Shown one piece after another: positions 7,944 to 44,855 of a stretch of 64,000 bases of DNA (position 1 is the first letter of the stretch; each line of letters opens with the position of its first letter). Below the pieces are notes generated by a model. It was given only the letters and a program-made list of their open reading frames with translations. It made no database searches and was not told where the DNA came from. Source of the stretch: Candidatus Thorarchaeota archaeon (GTDB lineage Archaea; Asgardarchaeota; Thorarchaeia; Thorarchaeales; Thorarchaeaceae); contig CP070761.1 in assembly GCA_020348985.1 (NCBI GenBank), positions 2,561,445-2,625,444 on the forward strand, in the 5' to 3' direction. The position numbers and the translations under genes were made by a program.

Positions 7944-8645
7944 TTAGCGTCGCATGATAAGGACAGGATTCTCTAGAAAGTGCTTCACAGGATCTCTCAC
8001 GACGAAGCGTTCATCTCCAACTTCAACTTCAAGGAGCTTTCTCAATTCGAATCTTCGGAGATAGCCAACCGCTTGCTCGCGTGGGAGATTCAAATCAGAC
8101 ATTAGATTCTTCAGTCCCTTCTTCTGACCACTGAATTCTGCAAGCTTGCTGAAGACCGAACTCCACTGCATCATCGTCAGATAGAGCAAAGTCCTCAACA
8201 TGCTATCAACATTCTTTCCGGTCTCCGCCGAAACCGGTATGACAGGAAGTCCAGCTAGGAATCTCATGCTCTTTCTTAGATGATCGACAGGACGGGCTGT
8301 GTCAAGGTCCTGCTTATTTGCCGCAACAACACATGGAACTCCGGGTAGGAAGAACGCAATCTCGCGGAAGAAGAGCTTGGCGCGTGCATCAGATTCAGGG
8401 TCTACCGAATCTACGACGAAAATGATCCCGTCAGCCCCCTCACTGAGAATCTTGCGCATAGTCCTGAACCTCAAGAGTCCTGGTGTGCCGAAAAGGAACA
8501 CACTGAGCCCGTCTATGTTTGCTAGGCCATGATCCATGGCGATTGTTGTCCCTCCGCGTTCAACATTGATACAGGATCCATCAGTAATATGATAAATCAT
8601 CTTGCTCTTTCCAGATTCGAAGGGACCGGTTACGACTAGTTTCAT
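7944..8645 (-). CDS. SRP-receptor-beta-like small GTPase (COG2229 type) with C-terminal winged helix
   Basis: This 233-aa protein has a small-GTPase domain in residues 1-160. It carries G1 GPFESGKS (7-14), TT at 33-34 in the switch region, G3 replaced by FGTPG (52-56), G4 NKQD (110-113) and G5 SAETG (139-143). The FGTPG form in place of DTAGQ is typical of the COG2229 family, which in bacteria works with roadblock proteins. The usual catalytic Gln after the Gly is replaced by Leu (GTPGLLRF). Residues 165-233 look like a winged-helix domain. I chose ATG 8645 because GGTG lies about nine bases upstream and the protein then starts directly with the MKLVVTGP strand. Confidence 0.85.
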   Translation of the reverse strand: MKLVVTGPFESGKSKMIYHITDGSCINVERGGTTIAMDHGLANIDGLSVFLFGTPGLLRFRTMRKILSEGADGIIFVVDSVDPESDARAKLFFREIAFFLPGVPCVVAANKQDLDTARPVDHLRKSMRFLAGLPVIPVSAETGKNVDSMLRTLLYLTMMQWSSVFSKLAEFSGQKKGLKNLMSDLNLPREQAVGYLRRFELRKLLEVEVGDERFVVRDPVKHFLENPVLIMRR

Positions 8646-8783
8646 ACTGCGACACCGTGCAATGCTCAAGCATGCGATAGAGTGCAAGTATCATCGCCGT
8701 TGTTAAATCCTTTTGCCGTGTTTCATTGACAGCGTTTCTGCGCAAAACATCATTGATATCGATACTGGGCTGAAAAGCTGGTG

Positions 8784-13430: not shown

Positions 13431-15248
13431 CTAGGATTCGTCGTTCTTGGAGCTCTGACTGTCAAGGCGATTGTTCTCTTCAGATACACCATCATCTGTA
13501 GGTACTGTGTCGAGAATTCCCAATGCCCTTTCGAGGTCTGTACGCATCTTATCATCAAGATCTTCCAATGGCTCTACCTCGCCGTCTAGAAGTACAACCT
13601 CCTCGCAAGAGAACGCTTCGAGGGCTGTTTCGAGTTCTTCTTTGGTTGCCTTTTCAATCTCTTCCGATACTAGATCGTCTGCATCAAGAGCCTCCGATAT
13701 CAGTGCGCGTGCCATCATCGATCCGTTTGATTCATCTGCGCTTGTCTCAATTTCGCTTTCTTCGATAAGAATAGGAACTGCCTCCTCAACTTCATCGTCA
13801 GATATAGTGACTACATCAAAGTCATCAGATGCTTCTACGGGGACCATCTCTGGTGCGATTCCTTCAACAACCACATCATCTTCAACAGCATCTTGGACTG
13901 GTATCTCGATTTCACGCTCCTCCAAATCGGCTGAAAGCGCAGCATCAACTTCAATGAAGAATTCCTCAATGGCATCCATTTCTGAGACATCCGAAACAAC
14001 AGGAGATTCTTCCGTCACAGCCGCCATGTGCTCTACAATCTCTTCTGTTACAAGATCCTCATCGAAGTGTTCAATCTCATCCTCAGCACCACCAACTTCA
14101 GGTACATCGGGGATAACAGAGGGTTCTTCAGCCACTACCTCGACAGGTTCCTCGAAAATTCCCTCGGCTTCTTCTGAGTCAGGCTCCACATCGACGTACT
14201 CAATAACTTCTTCAACGATTTCGTACTCATCTGCGTCCTCAATTATCCGACCATCTTCGTCAACGAGGATTTCTTCTACAATCTCAACTGTTTCGTATTC
14301 CTCTTCAACCTCTTCTTCTGAAACAGCAGAGGCTATTACCGCAGCTGCTTCGACAGCTTCTTCTGAGAACTTGAGCAGCTCAGAGGCTGGAAGATCAGGC
14401 AACGCCACTCCGACATACTGCGCAGCAGCTGTCATTAAGATGCGAAGCATCTCATCTCGACGGCCCTTGTCAATTGCAACCATTGGATAGGTCGGAATTC
14501 CTAATATCTTCTGAACCACCTCAGGTTTCATAGCATTTGGTTTGTCTTGCTTGTTAGCTATTGCGAAGACAGGAACCTTGGGTGCATCTCGCTTTATCAG
14601 TTTGAGAATGTCTTTGCTGATTATCACATTCCTTAGGGTTGAATCGCACACGAGAATGATAACATCAGCACCGTGGAAATAAAACCGCCAGAGTGTTCGG
14701 AATCTCTCTTGGCCTGCGAAATCCCACAGAACGAGTGAGTAGTTGCCGAAACGGATGTTCTCGACAGTCTCAAGGTTGAGTGCGATTGTAGGAACGTATT
14801 GAAGGGGAGGTGTGTCACCCAGGAGGAGATGAAGAGTAGTTGTCTTCCCTGTACCGCCCTCGCCAACCAGCGCTATCTTCAGCCTAGTAACCACCGAAGG
14901 CTCGATTATCTCCTCGAATCTCTCAAGCACGCTATTTAGATCGGCTCTTTCAATCTCAATAGTAAGATCGTGGGCTGCTTTCTTGACACGGTCTTGAGTG
15001 CTGAGCTCATCTTCACCCTTGTCTGTGACAAACACAAGAATTGAATCATCATTAACTTCGCTGCCCATGAACTTGTTCTGATCGATCACCAGAGGAATAT
15101 CCTCTAGTGCGTCATGGTTTTCCGCTAGCTCCTCTCTTGTTGAAATGTATTCTTCAATCTCGCTGGCCCCCACCTCAACTGGCCAGTACTGAACAGATGA
15201 GAGAATCTCATTGTCGTCCAGTCGGATAAGGAAGGCATTATGAATCAT
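13431..15248 (-). CDS. Longin-like domain fused to Arf-like GTPase with long acidic tail
   Basis: The 605-aa protein has three parts. Residues 1-115 start MIHNAFLIRLDDNEILSS and look like a longin/profilin-type fold. Residues 122-285 are a small GTPase of Arf/Rab character: G1 GEGGTGKT (129-136), switch I Thr154, WDFAGQERFRTLWRFYF from 175, NKQD (232-235), and a weak G5 (AIDK). Residues ~300-600 are a low-complexity, highly acidic Glu/Asp/Val region. The catalytic Gln of DFAGQ is kept. Eukaryotic SRP receptor and trafficking factors pair longin domains with Arf-like GTPases, but here they are in one chain. No lipid-anchor motif is seen. It likely regulates a membrane-associated process; the effector is unknown. 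Confidence 0.82.
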   Translation of the reverse strand: MIHNAFLIRLDDNEILSSVQYWPVEVGASEIEEYISTREELAENHDALEDIPLVIDQNKFMGSEVNDDSILVFVTDKGEDELSTQDRVKKAAHDLTIEIERADLNSVLERFEEIIEPSVVTRLKIALVGEGGTGKTTTLHLLLGDTPPLQYVPTIALNLETVENIRFGNYSLVLWDFAGQERFRTLWRFYFHGADVIILVCDSTLRNVIISKDILKLIKRDAPKVPVFAIANKQDKPNAMKPEVVQKILGIPTYPMVAIDKGRRDEMLRILMTAAAQYVGVALPDLPASELLKFSEEAVEAAAVIASAVSEEEVEEEYETVEIVEEILVDEDGRIIEDADEYEIVEEVIEYVDVEPDSEEAEGIFEEPVEVVAEEPSVIPDVPEVGGAEDEIEHFDEDLVTEEIVEHMAAVTEESPVVSDVSEMDAIEEFFIEVDAALSADLEEREIEIPVQDAVEDDVVVEGIAPEMVPVEASDDFDVVTISDDEVEEAVPILIEESEIETSADESNGSMMARALISEALDADDLVSEEIEKATKEELETALEAFSCEEVVLLDGEVEPLEDLDDKMRTDLERALGILDTVPTDDGVSEENNRLDSQSSKNDES

Positions 15249-22431: not shown

Positions 22432-23001
22432 CTAAATCGTGGTCTTAGCAAGCTCTTGGAATGCCTCTTCTACGTTCTGACCGGTCAGAGCACTTGTCTC
22501 CAGATAGCCGTTGAGACCATTCTCTTCGACAAACTGCTTGCCCTCCTCCGTCGAAATGACTCGTTCACCCTCGAGATCCACTTTGTTTGCCAAGAGTATA
22601 ATGGGAATCCGTTCGTTCAGCGCATCTTCAGTTTCGGTGATCCACTTCGGCAATTCGATGAATGTGCTCTTCCGAGTGGTATCAAACACAAGCAGGGCAC
22701 CCTTGGATCCACGGTAGTACGCGGCTCTGATGAAGTCGAATCGTTCTTGTCCAGCAAGATCCCAGACGAGAAGCTTGACAACAACATCTTTACCGTTGTT
22801 CTTCTCTACTAAAACGGTCTTGACGGCGAACTGTGATCCAATCGTGACTATGTATTGCTCTGAGAACTTGTTCGTCAGGAACCGATTGACGATGGCAGTC
22901 TTTCCGCTTCCACCGGCGCCTATCATTACCACTTTGCGCATGAAATCGAATTCCGACACGTTCTCCCAAACCTCAATCATTGATTCAAATACTTGCAGCA
23001 T
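22432..23001 (-). CDS. Rab/Ras-like small GTPase
   Basis: The 189-aa GTPase has complete motifs: G1 GAGGSGKT (28-35), switch I Thr53 (VTIGSQF), WDLAGQERFDF (80-90) with the catalytic Gln, NKVD (139-142) and ETSALTG (168-174). The WDLAGQERF and YRGSKGALLVFD pattern is of Rab type. There is no C-terminal cysteine for prenylation. Possible starts are ATG 23001, 22980 and 22941; the last would begin MRKVVMIGAGG. A TATA-like TAAATAG (minus strand) near 23058 favours a start at 23001 or 22980. The gene stands alone, divergent from the small ribbon-helix-helix gene. Confidence 0.88.
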   Translation of the reverse strand: MLQVFESMIEVWENVSEFDFMRKVVMIGAGGSGKTAIVNRFLTNKFSEQYIVTIGSQFAVKTVLVEKNNGKDVVVKLLVWDLAGQERFDFIRAAYYRGSKGALLVFDTTRKSTFIELPKWITETEDALNERIPIILLANKVDLEGERVISTEEGKQFVEENGLNGYLETSALTGQNVEEAFQELAKTTI

Positions 23002-28992: not shown

Positions 28993-30441
28993 TTGGGTAG
29001 TCTTCCTGGAAAACTTCGGAGTAGAGTACTTTCTGTCATATGCCCTACACCAGAGGAGATTAGAGACCAGCGAGCCGCGATTGATACATTGAGGCAAGCA
29101 CTTGAGCTGAGGGCAGACAATATTGGCCAGTCATACTCATTCATCGAAGCCCAAGGTTCCACGGGGAAGAAACAGACGCAATTGGCGGGTATATCAGATA
29201 TCGATCTCTTTGTTGGACTTCGCGTGCAGGACTTTCAAGACATATTCATGAAAGACCCTAAGGAGAGACACAAACATGTAGGAAAGGTCCTCGATAGCCT
29301 GGTGGATGATTGGTTTATTCCGGCCGTACAGACATTGGAGGCCACGAATGTGCAGAAGACCTACTCACAGCATCCATACTTGTCTCTCACTCTAATGGGT
29401 CTTGACGTGGACATACTCTCTTGTTTTGATATTTCTGCAGAAGCTATCGCTAATGACGGCCCGATCACTGCTGTTGATAGGACTGTTCATCACTCCAATT
29501 TCGTTGCAGAGAATCTCACGCCTGAGAAGAGGGAAGATGTGAGGCTCCTCAAATCATTCGTTCGTGCTTGTCACGCCTATGGCGACGATTGCGCAATCGG
29601 GAGGATGGGTTTCACGGGTTATTCACTTGAGCTGCTAGTCCTAGACTCTGATAGCTTCGCGGACGCGATACGAAGGATTGCACGGCTTAGAGTTGAACCT
29701 TTGGATCCAAAAGGTCGAAGCGTCGAGAAGCTTCGTAGTATTCCCTCCTTCCGTGATGACTACATACTGATAATTGATCCAACAGATCACGGAAGAAACG
29801 TAGCGTCAAGTTTCGATGAGCGAGCGGTACGATGGGTTCAACACAAGGCGAGACAGGTTGAGGAGTACTTAGAGAGAGGAATCCTAGAAGAGAATGCTGA
29901 GATTCTTATTGAAGAGGCGATATCTGAAGAGCCCCTCCCAGAGTCAGTCCGGAATCATGCTCTCTCGTTCGAGTTCCTGTCCGACGCGACAGTCCATTAT
30001 ACAGTCCAAAGGGACAAGCTTTACCGTCTGGCCAGGCGCATCTCTTCGCAACTGGAGCGGGAAGAAACTGGCGAAGTTAGATTCGGCAGGTCACTTGCGG
30101 AGGTCTACTTCGAAGGTACAAGATTTGCTTTAGGGATATTTGTTCAGAGGGCGTCAGTCTCAGAAGACTACGTCCGGCAGGGACCCCCGGTCGAGATGAA
30201 AGACGCTGCTGAGAGATTCATTCAAACGCATCCTGGGGCGTTTGAGGATGCAGGGCGATTGTGGGCTGAAGTGACCAGGAAGTGGACTGATGCGGGAATG
30301 CTGGCTAAGTACATAATCAGACATCATTCAATCAAGGGATTGACTCTAGTTTCAGAGAAAACAGCAGTATCAAGAAAAGCACTGAGAGCACTCTATGAGT
30401 ATGTCTTGCACGTAGAGAAGGACTTTACCACAGAAGAATGA
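28993..30441 (+). CDS. cca: CCA-adding enzyme (archaeal class I tRNA nucleotidyltransferase)
   Basis: This enzyme builds or repairs the 3' CCA of tRNA. The 482-aa protein has the nucleotidyltransferase motif QGSTGKKQTQLAGISDIDLFV (GS...D-x-D), a third carboxylate in MGLDVDILSCFDI, and the class I RLLKSFVRACHAYG region. The length is normal for archaea. The start is taken as TTG 28993; no ATG is close by and ribosome-binding sequence is weak. Its stop overlaps an in-frame ATG of the next gene (ATGA), suggesting cotranscription with the HDAC-like gene. Confidence 0.93.
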   Translation: MGSLPGKLRSRVLSVICPTPEEIRDQRAAIDTLRQALELRADNIGQSYSFIEAQGSTGKKQTQLAGISDIDLFVGLRVQDFQDIFMKDPKERHKHVGKVLDSLVDDWFIPAVQTLEATNVQKTYSQHPYLSLTLMGLDVDILSCFDISAEAIANDGPITAVDRTVHHSNFVAENLTPEKREDVRLLKSFVRACHAYGDDCAIGRMGFTGYSLELLVLDSDSFADAIRRIARLRVEPLDPKGRSVEKLRSIPSFRDDYILIIDPTDHGRNVASSFDERAVRWVQHKARQVEEYLERGILEENAEILIEEAISEEPLPESVRNHALSFEFLSDATVHYTVQRDKLYRLARRISSQLEREETGEVRFGRSLAEVYFEGTRFALGIFVQRASVSEDYVRQGPPVEMKDAAERFIQTHPGAFEDAGRLWAEVTRKWTDAGMLAKYIIRHHSIKGLTLVSEKTAVSRKALRALYEYVLHVEKDFTTEE

Positions 30442-30485
30442 AAGAGTTTAAGGAACTAAGAAACAGTCTCGAAAGGGGAGGAAGC

Positions 30486-31559
30486 ATGCCAAGTCGCTCG
30501 ATTGCATTCATTTCTCATCCAGAGCCCGGCCAGCATATTCAGCCATTTCCTAGACCACATCTTGAGTCATTTGAGAATCCCCTGAGAGCTCAAATGGCTG
30601 AGTTACATCTCAGGAACAGAGGGCTACTAGATGAGATGTCCGTCTTTGAGGCGGTAGAGGCGGACTCCAGTGATGTTCTCAGTGTGCATTCCGAGTATGT
30701 TCTGGACACAGCCATGCTTATGACAGATTTGGGATCCGGACAGCTGGGAGAAGCGGCCTATGCCAGCCCGGAACTATTGCGATCAGCTCTTCTTTCTACC
30801 GGAGGTGCAAAGCTGGCTGCAAATCTGGTCACTGAACCAGACTACATTCACTCGTTTTCTCTCATGAGACCTCCAGGTCATCATGCAACCTCATCAGCGT
30901 CTATGGGCCTCTGCTACTTCAACAACATCGCCATCGCAGCGAGAAGTATTCAAACAGAGGTAGGCATAAAGCGAATCTCGATAGTCGACATCGATGATCA
31001 TTTTGGCAACGGGACCGCAGAAATCTTCTATTCAGACCCTAGTGTTCAGTACATAAGCATACACGAGTATGACTATGAGAGTCTGGGTCTTGGACATTAC
31101 TATGAAGTTGGACAGGGGAAGGCTAAGGGTACAAACATCAACATCCCACTTGTTGAAATGAGTCAAGACGAGTCGTATAACTCAGCATTTGAGAGAGTAG
31201 TTCTCCCTGCCATCAAGAGTTTCAAACCGGAAGTGATTGGTGTGTCTGCTGGATTTGACGCACACTATTCGGATCCAGTGGGAAACATGAACATAGACTC
31301 AAAGACGTTTTGGTGGATTGGCCGAGAAGTGAATAGTCTTGTTCAGGACTTGAAGCTGCAGGGTTCTTTCTGGGTACTCGAGGGAGGTTACAATCCGTTT
31401 TCACTAGGACCCTGTATAGAGGCAAGTCTACGGGGCTTGGCGGGAGAGGAGACGCCTGAACTTGAAGATCAGTGCGAGAGAGTCATAAATCAAGAGTTGA
31501 TAGACGCAAACAACGAGATAATTGATGCAGTTCTTGAGACTGTCGAAGTGTACTGGTAG
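30486..31559 (+). CDS. Histone-deacetylase-family hydrolase
   Basis: The 357-aa enzyme shows the HDAC-fold motifs MRPPGHHA, GLCYFNNIAIAA, the zinc-binding DIDDHFGNGTAEI (Asp and His retained; the second usual His is Phe), SAGFDAHYSDP with the third Asp, and LEGGYNPF with the active-site Tyr. Archaeal members deacetylate small amides or acetylated lysines; the substrate is unproven. I prefer ATG 30486, with strong GGGGAGG four bases before it, over ATG 30438, which overlaps the CCA-enzyme stop but has no binding site. Confidence 0.9.
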   Translation: MPSRSIAFISHPEPGQHIQPFPRPHLESFENPLRAQMAELHLRNRGLLDEMSVFEAVEADSSDVLSVHSEYVLDTAMLMTDLGSGQLGEAAYASPELLRSALLSTGGAKLAANLVTEPDYIHSFSLMRPPGHHATSSASMGLCYFNNIAIAARSIQTEVGIKRISIVDIDDHFGNGTAEIFYSDPSVQYISIHEYDYESLGLGHYYEVGQGKAKGTNINIPLVEMSQDESYNSAFERVVLPAIKSFKPEVIGVSAGFDAHYSDPVGNMNIDSKTFWWIGREVNSLVQDLKLQGSFWVLEGGYNPFSLGPCIEASLRGLAGEETPELEDQCERVINQELIDANNEIIDAVLETVEVYW

Positions 31560-39897: not shown

Positions 39898-40446
39898 CTA
39901 TCCTCTTTGGGGGTAGCTGAGAGTTATCTTGAAGGAGCAATGCGGCCCGCCCACTGACATGCAGGACTCTTCCTCCACAATAAGCTTCTCATACTCGATT
40001 CGATTGAAGTCCGTTAGGTATTCGAGAACGGCCTCAACAAATCCGCGAAGGAAATAGCAACTTGGCTCTTGGCTTTCTAGACCTGAAGCGTAAGGATTCT
40101 CTCCAATCTCAATGATTGCCTCTTCATCTAGCCAGAGTTTGTATAGCTTGGAAATCCTGACATCACCAAATGGAACTATGAGATTCTCAAGTGCCATCTT
40201 GATGAACTCTACGATGCCCTTGAAGTCGCCAGGGGGTTTCTGTTTCCCTACTTTGAAGTACTCACGCTGTGCTTCAAGTCCAGCCAGGCGTCCTGCACTA
40301 TAATACAAATCACGAATACGATCAGGAAACATGACGGCAATCCTATTGCCAAGCATTGTCCACGTCTTCGAGAAGAAAGCACGCATTGTCTGACGCTGCT
40401 TCAGCTTGCCAGTCCACCATGGCGGAATATCCTTTGTGTTCGACAT
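39898..40446 (-). CDS. V4R/Bet3-superfamily protein, 182 aa
   Basis: The C-terminal half has the V4R pattern: PSCYFLRGFVEAVLEYL (Cys130), a strand, then EEESCMSVGGPHCSFKI (Cys162 and Cys170). V4R and Bet3 (TRAPP) domains belong to one superfamily. The N terminus is basic and helical. It is the third such protein in 5 kb and lies beside a Bet3-like gene (40523-40996). It may bind a small ligand or heme, or serve in a TRAPP-like complex; the sequence cannot decide. Confidence 0.72.
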   Translation of the reverse strand: MSNTKDIPPWWTGKLKQRQTMRAFFSKTWTMLGNRIAVMFPDRIRDLYYSAGRLAGLEAQREYFKVGKQKPPGDFKGIVEFIKMALENLIVPFGDVRISKLYKLWLDEEAIIEIGENPYASGLESQEPSCYFLRGFVEAVLEYLTDFNRIEYEKLIVEEESCMSVGGPHCSFKITLSYPQRG

Positions 40447-40522
40447 CTGGCGGCCTCTTTAATGACAGAGACTGAGCAGCACGTGTTAAGTGCTTTACTG
40501 GGATTGACCTGCAAAACGTGGC

Positions 40523-40996
40523 TCAGTTTAGTCTAATATTCCAAACGCAGTTATCCGCACCAGTTGCTCGACTTGCTTCTTGGAATACTTTCGCTTGTAC
40601 GTCCTTGAACTCTAGGATAGCTTCGATCATTCCGCTAAAGACCTCACAATATCCAAAGCCCCTCATGCCTTCGAGATTGACGTCCTGACACCATATGCAA
40701 TCCTTGTCAGCAATTCGAACTGAACCCCTTGCAGTATCCATATCGACGTCTGTTGGCCTTTTGTTGTAAAGCGTTCTGAAGACCACATCGATTAGTTTCG
40801 CAACGTCCTCACGTGTCGTGACAGTCTCTTTGGTCTTCTCCACGATTTCAGAGTTAAGATAGACCTGGGACCCTAGCTCCTTTCCGATCTCCCGGAGTCT
40901 TTGATTCGCCTCATCGATACTAGAAGTTGAAGACAGCACTTGGTCAACAGTCTGTGCATACAAACCTAGCAGTAACGGATTCTCAATCTTGACCAT
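40523..40996 (-). CDS. Bet3/V4R-like protein (cassette A)
   Basis: The 157-aa protein shares its core with 43401-43907. It has a helical N-terminal half, then CIWC (100-103), GFGYCEVFSGMIEAILEF (Cys117) and NCVWNIRLN (Cys150). The four cysteines have exactly the same spacing as in the paralog (C-x2-C-x13-C-x32-C). The fold suggests V4R/Bet3, as in TRAPP. ATG 40996 has AGGAGG ten bases upstream, and 22 bp separate it from the upstream roadblock gene (41019-42005). A metal or heme site is possible. Confidence 0.72.
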   Translation of the reverse strand: MVKIENPLLLGLYAQTVDQVLSSTSSIDEANQRLREIGKELGSQVYLNSEIVEKTKETVTTREDVAKLIDVVFRTLYNKRPTDVDMDTARGSVRIADKDCIWCQDVNLEGMRGFGYCEVFSGMIEAILEFKDVQAKVFQEASRATGADNCVWNIRLN

Positions 40997-41018
40997 TGAA
41001 TGTAAGCCTCCTAGCTGT

Positions 41019-42005
41019 CTATCTTGTTTTACCAATCATTCGCATGCCGTACTTTCTGTATTTGGCAAGAATCTGAATCACTTTTGGATGTGCCACGCCA
41101 GTCTTCTCAGCGATTTGCTCAGGTGTTAGAGAACCATTGCATAGCTTGACAATCTCTATGTCAGGGCCTTGGATTTTGGAGAGGTCGCCCTCAAACTTAG
41201 GACATTTCACAAATCGGCCCATAGCTGCTTCTTCTGCGGCTACAGCCTCCTCTCCACCTTCTGGCACAGTCACAATCTTCCGCGACGCCGCCCATTTCAG
41301 AAGGTCGGAGACTCGCTCTGTGGACTGAAACATTGTGTCGGCTATCTCTTCTACGTTCTTGCTTCCATCGACAAGCATCAGAACGTCGAACCCGAAGTTC
41401 CTGTAGGCGGACTTCATCTCGCTGTATAGATCCGACTCAAGTGAAAGCGCTGACGCATACGCTTCGCCCCTCTCAGGAACAGTGGTCGTCGTCACTGAGA
41501 ATGATTCTGGACTTGTCACTTCCGTTTCAGCAGGGGCATCAGCTGTTGCCGATGGTTCGGAAAGTGCTTCTGCTGGCGCGGGTTCAGGTTCAGGAGGTGG
41601 TGCCTCAGTTGCTGCTGCCTTCATAGCGATGCTTTCGAGAACCTGAAGATTGTCTTCAGCTGCATCTTCGAACTCTTCTGGAGGTGGTGGGAGCTCAACT
41701 CCTTCTAGAAGTCGTAGGACGTTTTTCGTCTTCGCGATTGCAAGACCCAGCTGCAATTCCGGAACGTATAGAACGGTCAGAATCCAATTTTCATCTACTG
41801 GAGACAGGACAACAAGACCTCGGTCCGTATCAATAGTCATGAGGCGCAGGTCGGACTTGTACAGATTGATGCTGTCCTTGACACGAGGAAATAGCTCATC
41901 AGGGAAAGCGAAGCTCACAAACGGCCGTCCAGCCTTGGTCATCAGTGAGTATCCTATCACTTGATCATCGAAACGAAGTTTCGAAAGTGCACGTTCCAAG
42001 TCCAT
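41019..42005 (-). CDS. Roadblock-winged helix protein (cassette A)
   Basis: The 328-aa protein has three parts. Residues 1-100 are a roadblock/longin-type domain (LSKLRFDDQVIGYSLMTKAG...WILTVLYVPELQLGLAIAK). Residues 105-175 form a Pro/Ala/Glu linker after LEGVELPPPP. Residues 180-328 hold two winged-helix-like units (EEIADTMFQSTERVSDLLKWAASRKIVTV and LTPEQIAEKTGVAHPKVIQILAKY). It is paralogous to 43929-44855 along its length. The ATG at 42005 aligns with the paralog's start. The Bet3-like gene follows immediately. It is likely a GTPase-linked scaffold with a regulatory tail. Confidence 0.75.
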   Translation of the reverse strand: MDLERALSKLRFDDQVIGYSLMTKAGRPFVSFAFPDELFPRVKDSINLYKSDLRLMTIDTDRGLVVLSPVDENWILTVLYVPELQLGLAIAKTKNVLRLLEGVELPPPPEEFEDAAEDNLQVLESIAMKAAATEAPPPEPEPAPAEALSEPSATADAPAETEVTSPESFSVTTTTVPERGEAYASALSLESDLYSEMKSAYRNFGFDVLMLVDGSKNVEEIADTMFQSTERVSDLLKWAASRKIVTVPEGGEEAVAAEEAAMGRFVKCPKFEGDLSKIQGPDIEIVKLCNGSLTPEQIAEKTGVAHPKVIQILAKYRKYGMRMIGKTR

Positions 42006-42203
42006 GGACATTTCCTAACACCCTGCGCAATATGGAATAGGCCCGACCCCGGCCATTCACAGCTCTTCCTCAGATGGTGGTCTATAAAGGATTGTGGTGC
42101 TGTACTCTTCCGCGACGACTCTTTTTCGATTCTCCGAGAGTCAAAAACGATTAAGAAGAGCTGTATCACCCAACAAAGTGCAAGAGCGAGAGGATATTGG
42201 AAG

Positions 42204-42779
42204 ATGAGAAACTTTCTGGGCGCACTAGTTGGCGCTCTAATGGGTACGTCACTAATTGTGGCCATTACAGGGCTCGCCCCACCCTCATATCCTGCGCCCC
42301 TCGACCTTGTATGGTTCGTACTAGCTGGAAGCGAATCACTGCTGCTATCAGTTCTAGATGCCGTTGATCCAACAAGCATGCTTGTGGGAACTATGGTCTG
42401 GATTGCTATGGGGGTAATCGCAGGGCTAGTCGCAACTTCTCGTTGGAATGTTCTAAGATCAGTCCTGTGGATGGGCGTCCTGGTGGCAGTTCTTGGACTT
42501 GTGTCCCTCTTCGCAATATCTCCAGACTTATGGTTTCAGGACCAAGCAGTAAGAAACACAGTGATTCTGTATCGCTTTGTGACAACATTGCTACTGTCAT
42601 TGGTGTCTGTGCTAGGCGCATTGCCAGTAGCTATGGCGATTATTACAATCAGAAAGAAGTCACTAGCCCTCCCTCCAGGTAAAATCGAGACAATATGTGA
42701 ATGCGGTGCGATCTTCAAGTCAAAGCCATTGATGTGTTCTGAATGTGGAAGGTTTTTGAGTGACAACCAGTCCAAATAG
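42204..42779 (+). CDS. Four-span membrane protein with C-terminal zinc ribbon
   Basis: The 191-aa protein has four membrane spans (about residues 5-25, 58-76, 86-105, 125-150) and a cytoplasmic C-terminal zinc-ribbon-like motif ICECGAIFKSKPLMCSECGRFL. It has no signal sequence beyond the first span. It is unrecognised. It lies between the two Bet3-roadblock cassettes and is convergent with another small membrane protein. ATG 42204 is in the same frame as a longer but implausible upstream extension. Confidence 0.68.
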   Translation: MRNFLGALVGALMGTSLIVAITGLAPPSYPAPLDLVWFVLAGSESLLLSVLDAVDPTSMLVGTMVWIAMGVIAGLVATSRWNVLRSVLWMGVLVAVLGLVSLFAISPDLWFQDQAVRNTVILYRFVTTLLLSLVSVLGALPVAMAIITIRKKSLALPPGKIETICECGAIFKSKPLMCSECGRFLSDNQSK

Positions 42780-42797
42780 ACCGAACACCGAGAGGCA

Positions 42798-43346
42798 TCA
42801 GCGATCCCGGCTTATTCCTCCTCCCAATAGGCCACCAACAATGGATGCAACGCCAGGCCAGATGCTTCCTTGAAGTGCAAGTTGCATGATAATCATGGAC
42901 TCGGTGCCGAATAGTGCGAAGAGGTCGGCATAGGGCTGAATTAGAAAAATCAGGAGCCAAGTCAGGAATGCACCGATGATAACGGCAAACAAGGATGCGA
43001 AGAGGCCTTCGAGGAAGCCCCTAGCTAGAAGCCCAGCGACAAGACCTGCTGTGCCCCATGTGACAAATGTGAGAACAGTTGTCTGGGTTGCGCCAAAGCT
43101 CAGGTGGCTTCCAAGATAATACGGATAAAGCACAGTCCCAACAATAGCCACCCGCAATTCTAAGTCGTTCACAGACAAAAACTCGGACACGAGTGCAGGT
43201 GGAATTACCTGTGAAGGTATGAACAGGCCGAATGTCAAGACTAGGAAAGCCATTACATATGCTACGACAAGTCCTACAATCATTCCAAGTCCTTGACCCA
43301 ATGCATATCCTCCAGTGGTTCTTCTAGCTCTCAAGTCCTCTCTCAA
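42798..43346 (-). CDS. Small integral membrane protein, 182 aa
   Basis: This hydrophobic protein has about five predicted spans with Gly-rich packing (GLGMIVGLVVAYVMAFLVLTFG, GTAGLVAGLLARG, GGLLGGG). It has a short basic start (REDLRARR) and is not recognised. It is convergent with the zinc-ribbon membrane protein, and both lie between the duplicated cassettes, so it may be their membrane partner. That is inference from location. Confidence 0.65.
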   Translation of the reverse strand: MREDLRARRTTGGYALGQGLGMIVGLVVAYVMAFLVLTFGLFIPSQVIPPALVSEFLSVNDLELRVAIVGTVLYPYYLGSHLSFGATQTTVLTFVTWGTAGLVAGLLARGFLEGLFASLFAVIIGAFLTWLLIFLIQPYADLFALFGTESMIIMQLALQGSIWPGVASIVGGLLGGGISRDR

Positions 43347-43400
43347 GTGTTCACTTTTATGCCTATTCCATGGGAACTAAGCCTAGAACACACTGGAGGT

Positions 43401-43907
43401 CTAGTCTCTGAGTCGAATGGTCCAGGTGCATGTTCCGTCTCCTACAGCTTTGCACGACTCTTGATAGGCTTCTCCGTTGAATCCTCGCAGATCGAGAACA
43501 GCCTGAAACACTCCGCTTACAAGATTGCAATACTGGAGACCTGGCATGTCGGTGATATGGACACCTTCACATAGCGGACACTCTTCATCGCTAAACTTCA
43601 CAGCTCGCTTGTCATCACTCAGCCAGATGTTTGTGAATTCTTGACCCGAGTTGACCTTGTAGGCGAGATGGAGGGTCGACGAGAATTCGTGAAATGCCTT
43701 TGCGTGCGCTCGGATCCTCTCCGCATAATCCATGAGCAGGTGCTCGCCTACCTTGTACCCCATGTCCAACAGCTTCTCATTAATGGCATCGACACTTTCG
43801 CTGCTCGATATCAACAAGTTGAGGAGCTCCCGATACATGCTCTGAAACAGGGGCTTAGCGACCTTCGGTGTCATGAATCTCCAGGCTACCTTTCCTCTGA
43901 AGCCCAT
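43401..43907 (-). CDS. Bet3/V4R-like protein (cassette B)
   Basis: The 168-aa paralog of 40523-40996 has an extra basic N terminus, then the conserved core: CPLC (110-113), GLQYCNLVSGVFQAVLDL (Cys127) and TCTWTIRLRD (Cys160). Cysteine spacing is identical to cassette A. ATG 43907 has GGAGG nine bases upstream and follows the stop of the roadblock gene by 21 bp. The pattern CxxC...C...C suggests a structural metal or heme. Its relation to TRAPP Bet3 is by fold pattern, not demonstrated. Confidence 0.72.
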   Translation of the reverse strand: MGFRGKVAWRFMTPKVAKPLFQSMYRELLNLLISSSESVDAINEKLLDMGYKVGEHLLMDYAERIRAHAKAFHEFSSTLHLAYKVNSGQEFTNIWLSDDKRAVKFSDEECPLCEGVHITDMPGLQYCNLVSGVFQAVLDLRGFNGEAYQESCKAVGDGTCTWTIRLRD

Positions 43908-43928
43908 TCCTTTGTTCCTCCATGATAT

Positions 43929-44855
43929 CTAGTTGATTTCTATGATCTTTCGGATAAACCGTACGGTCTTGCCACGATAGGGTACGATTGACTGTAGTGC
44001 TTGGAAGTATGGAATGTCCAACTCGCCAGCTATATCATGAATTGTGCGGTTGCCATCACAAAGAGCAAGCACTTCACGGTGCTGTTTCTTTGCCTTGCTT
44101 AGTTTCCCCTCAAATAGAGGAACCTCAACGACCTCCTTCTGACTAGTCTCTTGTACTTCGGGACATTCTAGCGTGACAACATGTCTTGAAGTGCACCATT
44201 TGACAACCTCAAGGACTCGTTCCACTCGTCGGGCCAGAGATTCAGCGATCCCGAATACAGTCCGCTGTTCATCCACCATCAGAAGTACATCGACTCCCAT
44301 GTTGGAAAAACCGCCAACCAGAAGTCTGTTGAGTTCACTATCAATGCTTGTTGCTTCTTGGTACAAATCACCCCGAAGGACCACACAACCATGGGAAATG
44401 GAAATCTCATCGAGTGGTATGTCTTCCTTCTCTTCGACGACAACAACCTCAGGCAGAGCTTCTTGAACAACTGATGCAGAGGCTTGGACTGCTGTTGCAA
44501 CCTCTGTCATGGCGGGAATTATGCGGCTTGGTGGTGGAGGAAGATCCACACCCTCAAGTAGAGTGACCACGTCTTGCGTTCTCTGAAGCGCCAGACCAAG
44601 AGGAGAATCGGGGGAGAAGACCACTGCAAGAACCCAATTGACATCCACTCTTGCAAGGATTACGGTCCCCTCACTGGACATGACATTCATCAGTTTCAAT
44701 GAGGAGGAATAGATTTCCATGGTTCCTTTGATTATCGGCACAGTCTCGTCAGGAAGTGAGAAAGTCAGGAAAGGCATGCCATCGTTGGTAATAAGAGCGT
44801 ATCCATTAACTGATTCATCGTATCTTAGTTTAGTCAGTACACGCTCTAGTGCCAA
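43929..44855 (-). CDS. Roadblock-winged helix protein (cassette B)
   Basis: The 308-aa paralog of 41019-42005 has the same order: a roadblock/longin-type N terminus (LTKLRYDESVNGYALITNDG...WVLAVVFSPDSPLGLALQR), the linker starting LEGVDLPPPPSR, and two winged-helix-like units ending YRGKTVRFIRKIIEIN. Residue identity is moderate, so the duplication is not recent. I chose TTG 44855, which aligns with the cassette A start and has GGGTG eight bases before it; another TTG lies at 44861. It is followed directly by the Bet3-like gene. Confidence 0.75.
   Translation of the reverse strand: MALERVLTKLRYDESVNGYALITNDGMPFLTFSLPDETVPIIKGTMEIYSSSLKLMNVMSSEGTVILARVDVNWVLAVVFSPDSPLGLALQRTQDVVTLLEGVDLPPPPSRIIPAMTEVATAVQASASVVQEALPEVVVVEEKEDIPLDEISISHGCVVLRGDLYQEATSIDSELNRLLVGGFSNMGVDVLLMVDEQRTVFGIAESLARRVERVLEVVKWCTSRHVVTLECPEVQETSQKEVVEVPLFEGKLSKAKKQHREVLALCDGNRTIHDIAGELDIPYFQALQSIVPYRGKTVRFIRKIIEIN

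Follow-up and report, generated by a model that had tools for sequence, protein, structure and literature searches.

The core of the eukaryotic TRAPP complex brings together a Bet3-family subunit (Bet3/TRAPPC3) and the longins Bet5/TRAPPC1 and Trs23/TRAPPC4, and the Bet5/Trs23 longin heterodimer forms most of its catalytic site. Small GTPases usually find their platform in a roadblock or longin domain, and the ligands of Bet3/V4R domains are hydrophobic. Here we describe a locus within a 64,000-nt stretch of a Candidatus Thorarchaeota genome (contig CP070761.1; hereafter the window) in which two genes for Bet3-like proteins, Bet3-A and Bet3-B, each stand next to a gene for a roadblock protein with a winged helix-turn-helix (wHTH) tail, RB-A and RB-B. 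Each of these pairs most likely encodes a small-GTPase regulatory complex made of TRAPP-like parts.

The closest described relative of the locus is the crystallised Thor-TRAPPC3 (PDB 7yh2 and 7yh3; PMC10933270), of which Bet3-A is, judging by its match to 7yh2 (E = 4.9e-78), the orthologue, with the same fold and zinc cysteines and presumably a dimer with a cavity. Bet3-B, in contrast, is a different paralogue (E = 3e-24 to the same structure) and is closer to eukaryotic TRAPPC3. In the accessible parts of PMC10933270, neither the paired roadblock-wHTH gene nor the duplication is discussed for Thor-TRAPPC3. Those parts also describe a Heimdall longin-TRAPPC3 fusion (MBD3190748.1), which displays the same partnership in one chain but is a single-gene fusion, whereas the window carries a duplicated gene pair with wHTH domains. 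Among Asgard proteins, TRAPPC3, roadblocks and a single longin-TRAPPC3 fusion have already been published; of the wHTH-bridged cassette as a recurrent arrangement, and of the operons with GTPases presented below, we found no description in the open-licence literature.

Two paralogous roadblock/Bet3 pairs

Both pairs were present where a first-pass annotation of the window had placed them, and all five genes that it listed were confirmed on the minus strand at the coordinates in Table 1. Read along that strand, the order is RB-B, Bet3-B, a small membrane protein, a convergent membrane-protein gene, RB-A, Bet3-A and a V4R protein, with 21 nt separating RB-B from Bet3-B downstream of it. RB-A and RB-B are 34% identical over 328 aa (E = 3e-64), and Bet3-A and Bet3-B are 23% identical over 154 aa (E = 9e-26). 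Since both the roadblock proteins and the Bet3 proteins are paralogous, the arrangement is a duplicated pair and not a chance one. The linker motif reported in the annotation, LEGVxLPPPP, was found in both RB paralogues, as LEGVELPPPP and LEGVDLPPPP.

The Bet3/V4R-like nature of the smaller proteins also held up. Bet3-A (40.1 bits, E = 3.8e-10) and Bet3-B (37.5 bits, E = 2.5e-9) both exceeded the gathering cut-off of 27 for PF04051, with alignments that span nearly the full domain (from position 1 or 4 to 152 of 154), which assigns them to the TRAPP-domain protein family. The V4R protein, annotated as a third adjoining member, matched PF02830 (40.5 bits, E = 2.9e-10; cut-off 31), and its profile matched Bet3-B in a profile-profile comparison (58 columns, probability 94.6) as well as the MJ1460 V4R structure (E = 0.007). 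Bet3-A is orthologous to proteins of Thor SMTZ1-45 and AB25, and was used to identify the Thorarchaeal family discussed below. Bet3-B gave direct matches to eukaryotic TRAPPC3/BET3 (best E = 6.7e-9, range to 1e-4), whereas those of Bet3-A (0.02), a Hermodarchaeal Bet3 (1e-5) and a Borrarchaeal Bet3 (0.003) were weaker, and the Bet3-B family profile ranked TRAPPC3 (1.3e-15) ahead of TRAPPC5 (6e-5) and a third TRAPP-type subunit (6e-4). In an unrooted tree, Bet3-B joined the Bet3s from most of the remaining Asgard families and Bet3-A fell on a separate branch, a separation that is not firm given its long branches (support 91/97).

The two window Bet3s have the four cysteines of Thor-TRAPPC3 in common, so that their spacing, first described as identical, is nearly so, Bet3-B having one extra cysteine. 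The Bet3 family carries glycine doublets in helices 2 and 5 (PMC2253512); on inspection of the alignment, the first doublet was seen in Bet3-A and Bet3-B (GYKVG, GKELG), and the site of the second reads G-x3-A in both (SGVFQAV, SGMIEAI). Bet3-B ends about 4–10 residues past the last shared position, while eukaryotic chains run 15–21 further, and its C-terminal tail is about 10 residues shorter than that of eukaryotic Bet3, which in TRAPP opens the nucleotide pocket (PMC10152722).

The partner had been annotated as a roadblock/longin-type protein with a winged-helix tail. An AlphaFold2 model of RB-B, built from a 44-sequence alignment (predicted local distance difference test score, pLDDT, 90.4), has the N-terminal order H-EE-H-EEE-H, i.e., that of a roadblock, followed by a disordered linker and two wHTH domains; the roadblock and the tail thus stand, and we rejected a longin identity on this topology. 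The top Foldseek matches of RB-B were Asgard roadblocks (MK-D1, Thorarchaeota), followed by Streptomyces, Ragulator and MglB entries (9jue at 9e-7, 7f8m, and MglB at about 1e-4). RB-A matched Pfam Robl_LC7 (PF03259) weakly (E = 0.18), and aligns with RB-B in the alignment behind the model, which comprises the roadblock and the two wHTH domains.

A wHTH tail beside a V4R-like sensor could also suggest a ligand- or redox-sensing transcription regulator, with Bet3/V4R as the small-molecule sensor and the wHTH as the DNA-binding part, like the methanogen MsvR (V4R + HTH). In bacteria and archaea, V4R domains sense ligands; PoxR and MsvR, which have a homologous sensor fold, tie it to a DNA-binding output, without a roadblock or GTPase. 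The window V4R gene weakly matches MsvR (E = 0.002), the second wHTH domain has a net charge of about +5 in RB-A and +3 in RB-B, and TrmB/ArsR/MarR models match weakly. However, the tail resembles PF16221, DUF742 and PqqD types, and its best models (HTH_47, DUF742, PqqD-like) are not established DNA binders; moreover, what constantly accompanies the Bet3 gene encodes a zinc ribbon, a longin or a roadblock, and the operons contain GTPases. We therefore regard a transcription regulator as unlikely. DUF742 is the CvnC component of the roadblock-GTPase conservons, actinobacterial operons that combine a CvnB roadblock, a CvnC DUF742-like wHTH and a CvnD Ras-like GTPase but that differ in having a histidine-kinase-like CvnA and, in their core of four genes, no Bet3/V4R; the immediate neighbours of the window cassette include neither a kinase-like gene nor a GTPase gene. 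The tail is nearer to DUF742 and to the Nprl2/3 arrangement, both tied to GTPases, than to known DNA binders, although it may still bind DNA.

Pairing within and beyond the Thorarchaeal family

In nearly all genomes of the Thorarchaeal family whose contigs span the block, we found the order LysS, FtsX, ABC, HTH, V4R, Bet3-A, RB-A, membrane proteins, Bet3-B, RB-B, PfkB, L13e, DUF72 and GlnA. In nearly every family locus, the two genes of each RB/Bet3 pair share a strand and are spaced by -17 to about 40 nt, which suggests that each pair is co-transcribed. The V4R protein is the most conserved member (68–79% identity) and always adjoins Bet3-A in the family. The small membrane protein, which starts 54 nt downstream of Bet3-B, is 45–59% identical and present in nearly all family loci; it may or may not belong to the module, and a search of the non-family loci returned no relatives of it. 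The convergent membrane protein (30–44% identity across family loci, on the opposite strand) is probably a bystander.

About 15 unrelated genes, housekeeping genes included, are kept in order just as well through the whole family, so family synteny says little about function, and we rejected it as functional proof. It would equally fit neighbours that have no functional link and are held together by slow gene-order change. This explanation is very hard to reconcile with loci outside the family, where the pair recurs with proteins only 20–25% identical, in different gene contexts and as fusions, and we consider it highly improbable. The pairing outside the family is the stronger evidence, and it is in this wider form that the Asgard synteny check proposed in the annotation came out in favour of the module.

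To survey these loci, we searched 228 genomes of the phylum, most of them drafts, with separate Bet3 and RB-wHTH profiles and then read the loci. A tally made by hand from the listed matches counted as strong every non-family Bet3 locus with an E-value of 1e-20 or lower, 36 in all. A profile-confirmed roadblock-, longin- or zinc-ribbon-wHTH partner adjoins the Bet3 gene or is fused to it in 24 of them. In another two, Bet3 is fused to an N-terminal domain of unconfirmed type, and the remaining 10 are without a partner, being tandem Bet3 genes (families f3 and f13) or single genes elsewhere. The two profiles independently marked neighbours in f2, f4, f12, f14, f24, f25 and f27, and because only f1 and f14 went into the RB-wHTH profile, all of these except f14 are independent of its source. 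With roughly three RB-wHTH hits per 3 Mb genome, we put the probability of such adjacency by chance on the order of 1 in 1000 for any one locus.

The N-terminal half of the partner, assigned by eye beyond the modelled types, is a roadblock in f1, f2, f4, f14 and f24, a longin in f24 and f27, and a zinc-ribbon domain in f12 (Hermodarchaeota). The wHTH is its usual constant part, absent from the longin-Bet3 fusions of f28 and f19; f29 contains a wHTH-Bet3 fusion. Fusions at L087, L103 and probably L060 are comparable to MBD3190748.1.

The longin-wHTH protein of Borrarchaeum was modelled with a pLDDT of 78 and the order EE-H-EEE-HH, that of a longin. A profile of seven longins (the Borrarchaeal type plus L087) had TRAPP BET5 as its best PDB match (5.5e-4; next 0.008; Trs23 at 0.94), and Pfam Sybindin aligned full length with the longin (E = 0.028). 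Against the PDB, a three-longin profile gave nothing relevant, so the link to Bet5 is modest in E-value and sensitive to the alignment. The longin-wHTH profile matched in 222 of the 228 genomes, which makes adjacency telling and mere presence not.

Foldseek placed SEA/GATOR1 chains first for the longin-wHTH model (E about 1e-6), with TRAPP longins from 6e-5, and matched the RB-B model to GATOR1 (about 4e-6) and Ragulator chains. These matches raise the alternative of a GATOR1/Nprl2-3-like or Ragulator-like GTPase-activating protein (GAP) or scaffold for Rag/Arf-like GTPases that uses Bet3 and has no special kinship with TRAPP. Nprl2/Nprl3, likewise small-GTPase regulators, consist of a longin and two or more wHTH domains, and the roadblock protein MglB is a GAP. 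Yet TM-scores to the GATOR1 chains are low (0.2–0.4) with a large root-mean-square deviation, apparently leaving only the domain order in common, GATOR1 is without Bet3, and the best sequence match of the longin profile is Bet5. A GATOR1- or Ragulator-like module of this kind thus seems improbable.

Several further V4R/Bet3 arrangements were observed. Tandem divergent Bet3/V4R genes without a wHTH partner occur in several families (L083, L084, L085, L086, L094, L096, L098, L104), and at L100, L108 and L109 a V4R/Bet3 gene is directly followed by a gene for a ~490-aa protein with a V4R/Bet3-like start. In L105, a half that looks KaiC/RadA-like by eye is fused to a V4R/Bet3 domain. A histone deacetylase-like gene, also identified by eye, precedes the RB-wHTH/Bet3 pair in two f14 loci (L058, L059); the window has its own histone deacetylase gene elsewhere (PF00850, E = 1e-72).

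GTPase operons and the proposed role of the pairs

Candidatus Borrarchaeum weybense has three Ras-like genes and Candidatus Borrarchaeum yapensis two, followed on the same strand in both by longin-wHTH and Bet3 genes; of the three in weybense, two were tested and matched PF00071 (to 2e-41). One such Borrarchaeum set lies on contig JAHQJS010000004.1. A compact Thorarchaeal operon of Ras-family GTPase, zinc-ribbon-wHTH and V4R/Bet3 genes occurs five times in four genomes, one of which carries it twice, and the probable longin-Bet3 fusion of L060 (f29) lies beside two divergent Ras-family genes. A separate Borrarchaeal operon has the order Bet3-Bet3-longin-wHTH (L054, L055, L092, L093), and its two different Bet3 genes suggest, by analogy, a heterodimer as in TRAPP.

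We lean towards the interpretation that each pair is a two-component complex that regulates a small GTPase in response to a ligand. A small Ras/Rab/Arf-like GTPase would dock on a dimeric platform formed by the roadblock-wHTH protein, whose wHTH tail would join the roadblock to a Bet3 dimer stabilised by zinc and enclosing a cavity for a ligand, perhaps a lipid; the complex would then control the nucleotide state or membrane placement of the GTPase in response to that ligand. Such a switch would be economical, because roadblock/longin domains are GTPase platforms and Bet3/V4R domains bind hydrophobic ligands. That the two proteins physically pair is quite likely, and that the pair regulates a small GTPase is probable, if less so. 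Nucleotide exchange as the specific effect is more doubtful, as the effect may be exchange (as with TRAPP), GTP hydrolysis (as with MglB/GATOR1) or scaffolding (as with Ragulator).

Several observations weigh against this interpretation. There is no GTPase gene near the window cassette, the closest in the window lying ~17 kb away; the annotation's proposal of a GTPase-regulating system draws its support from the operons of other Asgard genomes, and nothing in the analysis pointed to the membrane tethering that it named as the alternative. The family synteny belongs to a long conserved block, and partnerless Bet3 genes exist in f3 and f13 (in tandem) and at L056, L088 and L106. According to PMC10933270, Thor-TRAPPC3 is a homodimer, is read as a ligand binder and was not membrane-localised in HeLa cells, and the GTPases of MK-D1 generally lie outside operons with such genes. 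The Borrarchaeum and Thorarchaeal GTPase loci and L060 are exceptions to the MK-D1 pattern, in other lineages.

Table 1. Coordinates of the window genes and of loci in other genomes.
Feature	Location	Position	Strand	Remarks
V4R protein	window	39898..40446	-	182 aa; PF02830
Bet3-A	window	40523..40996	-	ATG start, 157 aa like orthologues; TRAPP-domain protein
RB-A	window	41019..42005	-	roadblock, acidic Pro-rich linker, two wHTH domains
Membrane protein with C-terminal zinc ribbon	window	41961..42779	+	convergent, between the pairs; hydrophobic segments
Small predicted membrane protein	window	42798..43346	-	several hydrophobic segments; conserved in Thorarchaeal family
Bet3-B	window	43401..43907	-	TRAPP-domain protein, more TRAPPC3-like paralogue; PF04051
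RB-B	window	43929..44855	-	roadblock, linker, two wHTH domains; AlphaFold2 model, Foldseek
GTPase gene	window	7944-8687		Ras-like, beside TPR protein gene
GTPase gene	window	13431-15248		605-aa protein, central Arf/Roc-like domain
GTPase gene	window	22432-23001		Rab-like motifs
Histone deacetylase gene	window	30438-31559		PF00850
Borrarchaeum GTPase-longin-wHTH-Bet3 cluster	L081	1244-4864
Borrarchaeum GTPase-longin-wHTH-Bet3 cluster	L082	1781-4781
Thorarchaeal GTPase operon	L101	2864-4537
Thorarchaeal GTPase operon	L101	5912-7483
Thorarchaeal GTPase operon	L102	2804-4364
Thorarchaeal GTPase operon	L145	4654-6317
Thorarchaeal GTPase operon	L146	3047-4677
Borrarchaeal Bet3-Bet3-longin-wHTH operon	L054	6935-8667
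KaiC/RadA-like V4R/Bet3 fusion	L105	2998-4260		N-terminal half by eye
Histone deacetylase-like gene	L058	1065-1841		f14; by eye
Histone deacetylase-like gene	L059	4585-5361		f14; by eye

Relation to TRAPP

The window cassette shares a Bet3-family subunit with the TRAPP core, and differs from it in that its partner is a roadblock protein, the wHTH of the partner gene is absent from TRAPP and the Bet3 tail is shorter. Lacking the longin pair and having only a short Bet3 tail, the cassette is no TRAPP complex, although its mode of action may be similar. The claim that it holds exactly the two TRAPP fold classes applies only to other lineages, where Borrarchaeum encodes a Bet5-like longin beside Bet3 and Ras-like GTPases. 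We are doubtful that Asgard archaea possess a proto-TRAPP, i.e., a wHTH-bridged roadblock/longin-Bet3 exchange factor for Rab-like GTPases ancestral to TRAPP, and similarly tentative about the route this would imply, in which TRAPP arose as the wHTH was lost, longins of the Bet5/Trs23 type were taken up and the Bet3 tail lengthened. If this were true, the GTPase-longin-Bet3 operon of Borrarchaeum would be close to the ancestral arrangement.

Where Rab regulation and vesicle tethering come from is one of the unsettled points in the origin of eukaryotes, and PMC10933270 describes the partners and target GTPases of the isolated Asgard TRAPPC3, longin and roadblock proteins as hard to match from genome layout. 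The conserved pairs, fusions and GTPase operons name partners and likely GTPases, which makes complex formation and exchange activity directly testable with a handful of small proteins. Recurring across Asgard archaea, in places within one operon with Ras-like GTPases, pairs of the window type may be similar to what the TRAPP complex of eukaryotes descended from.

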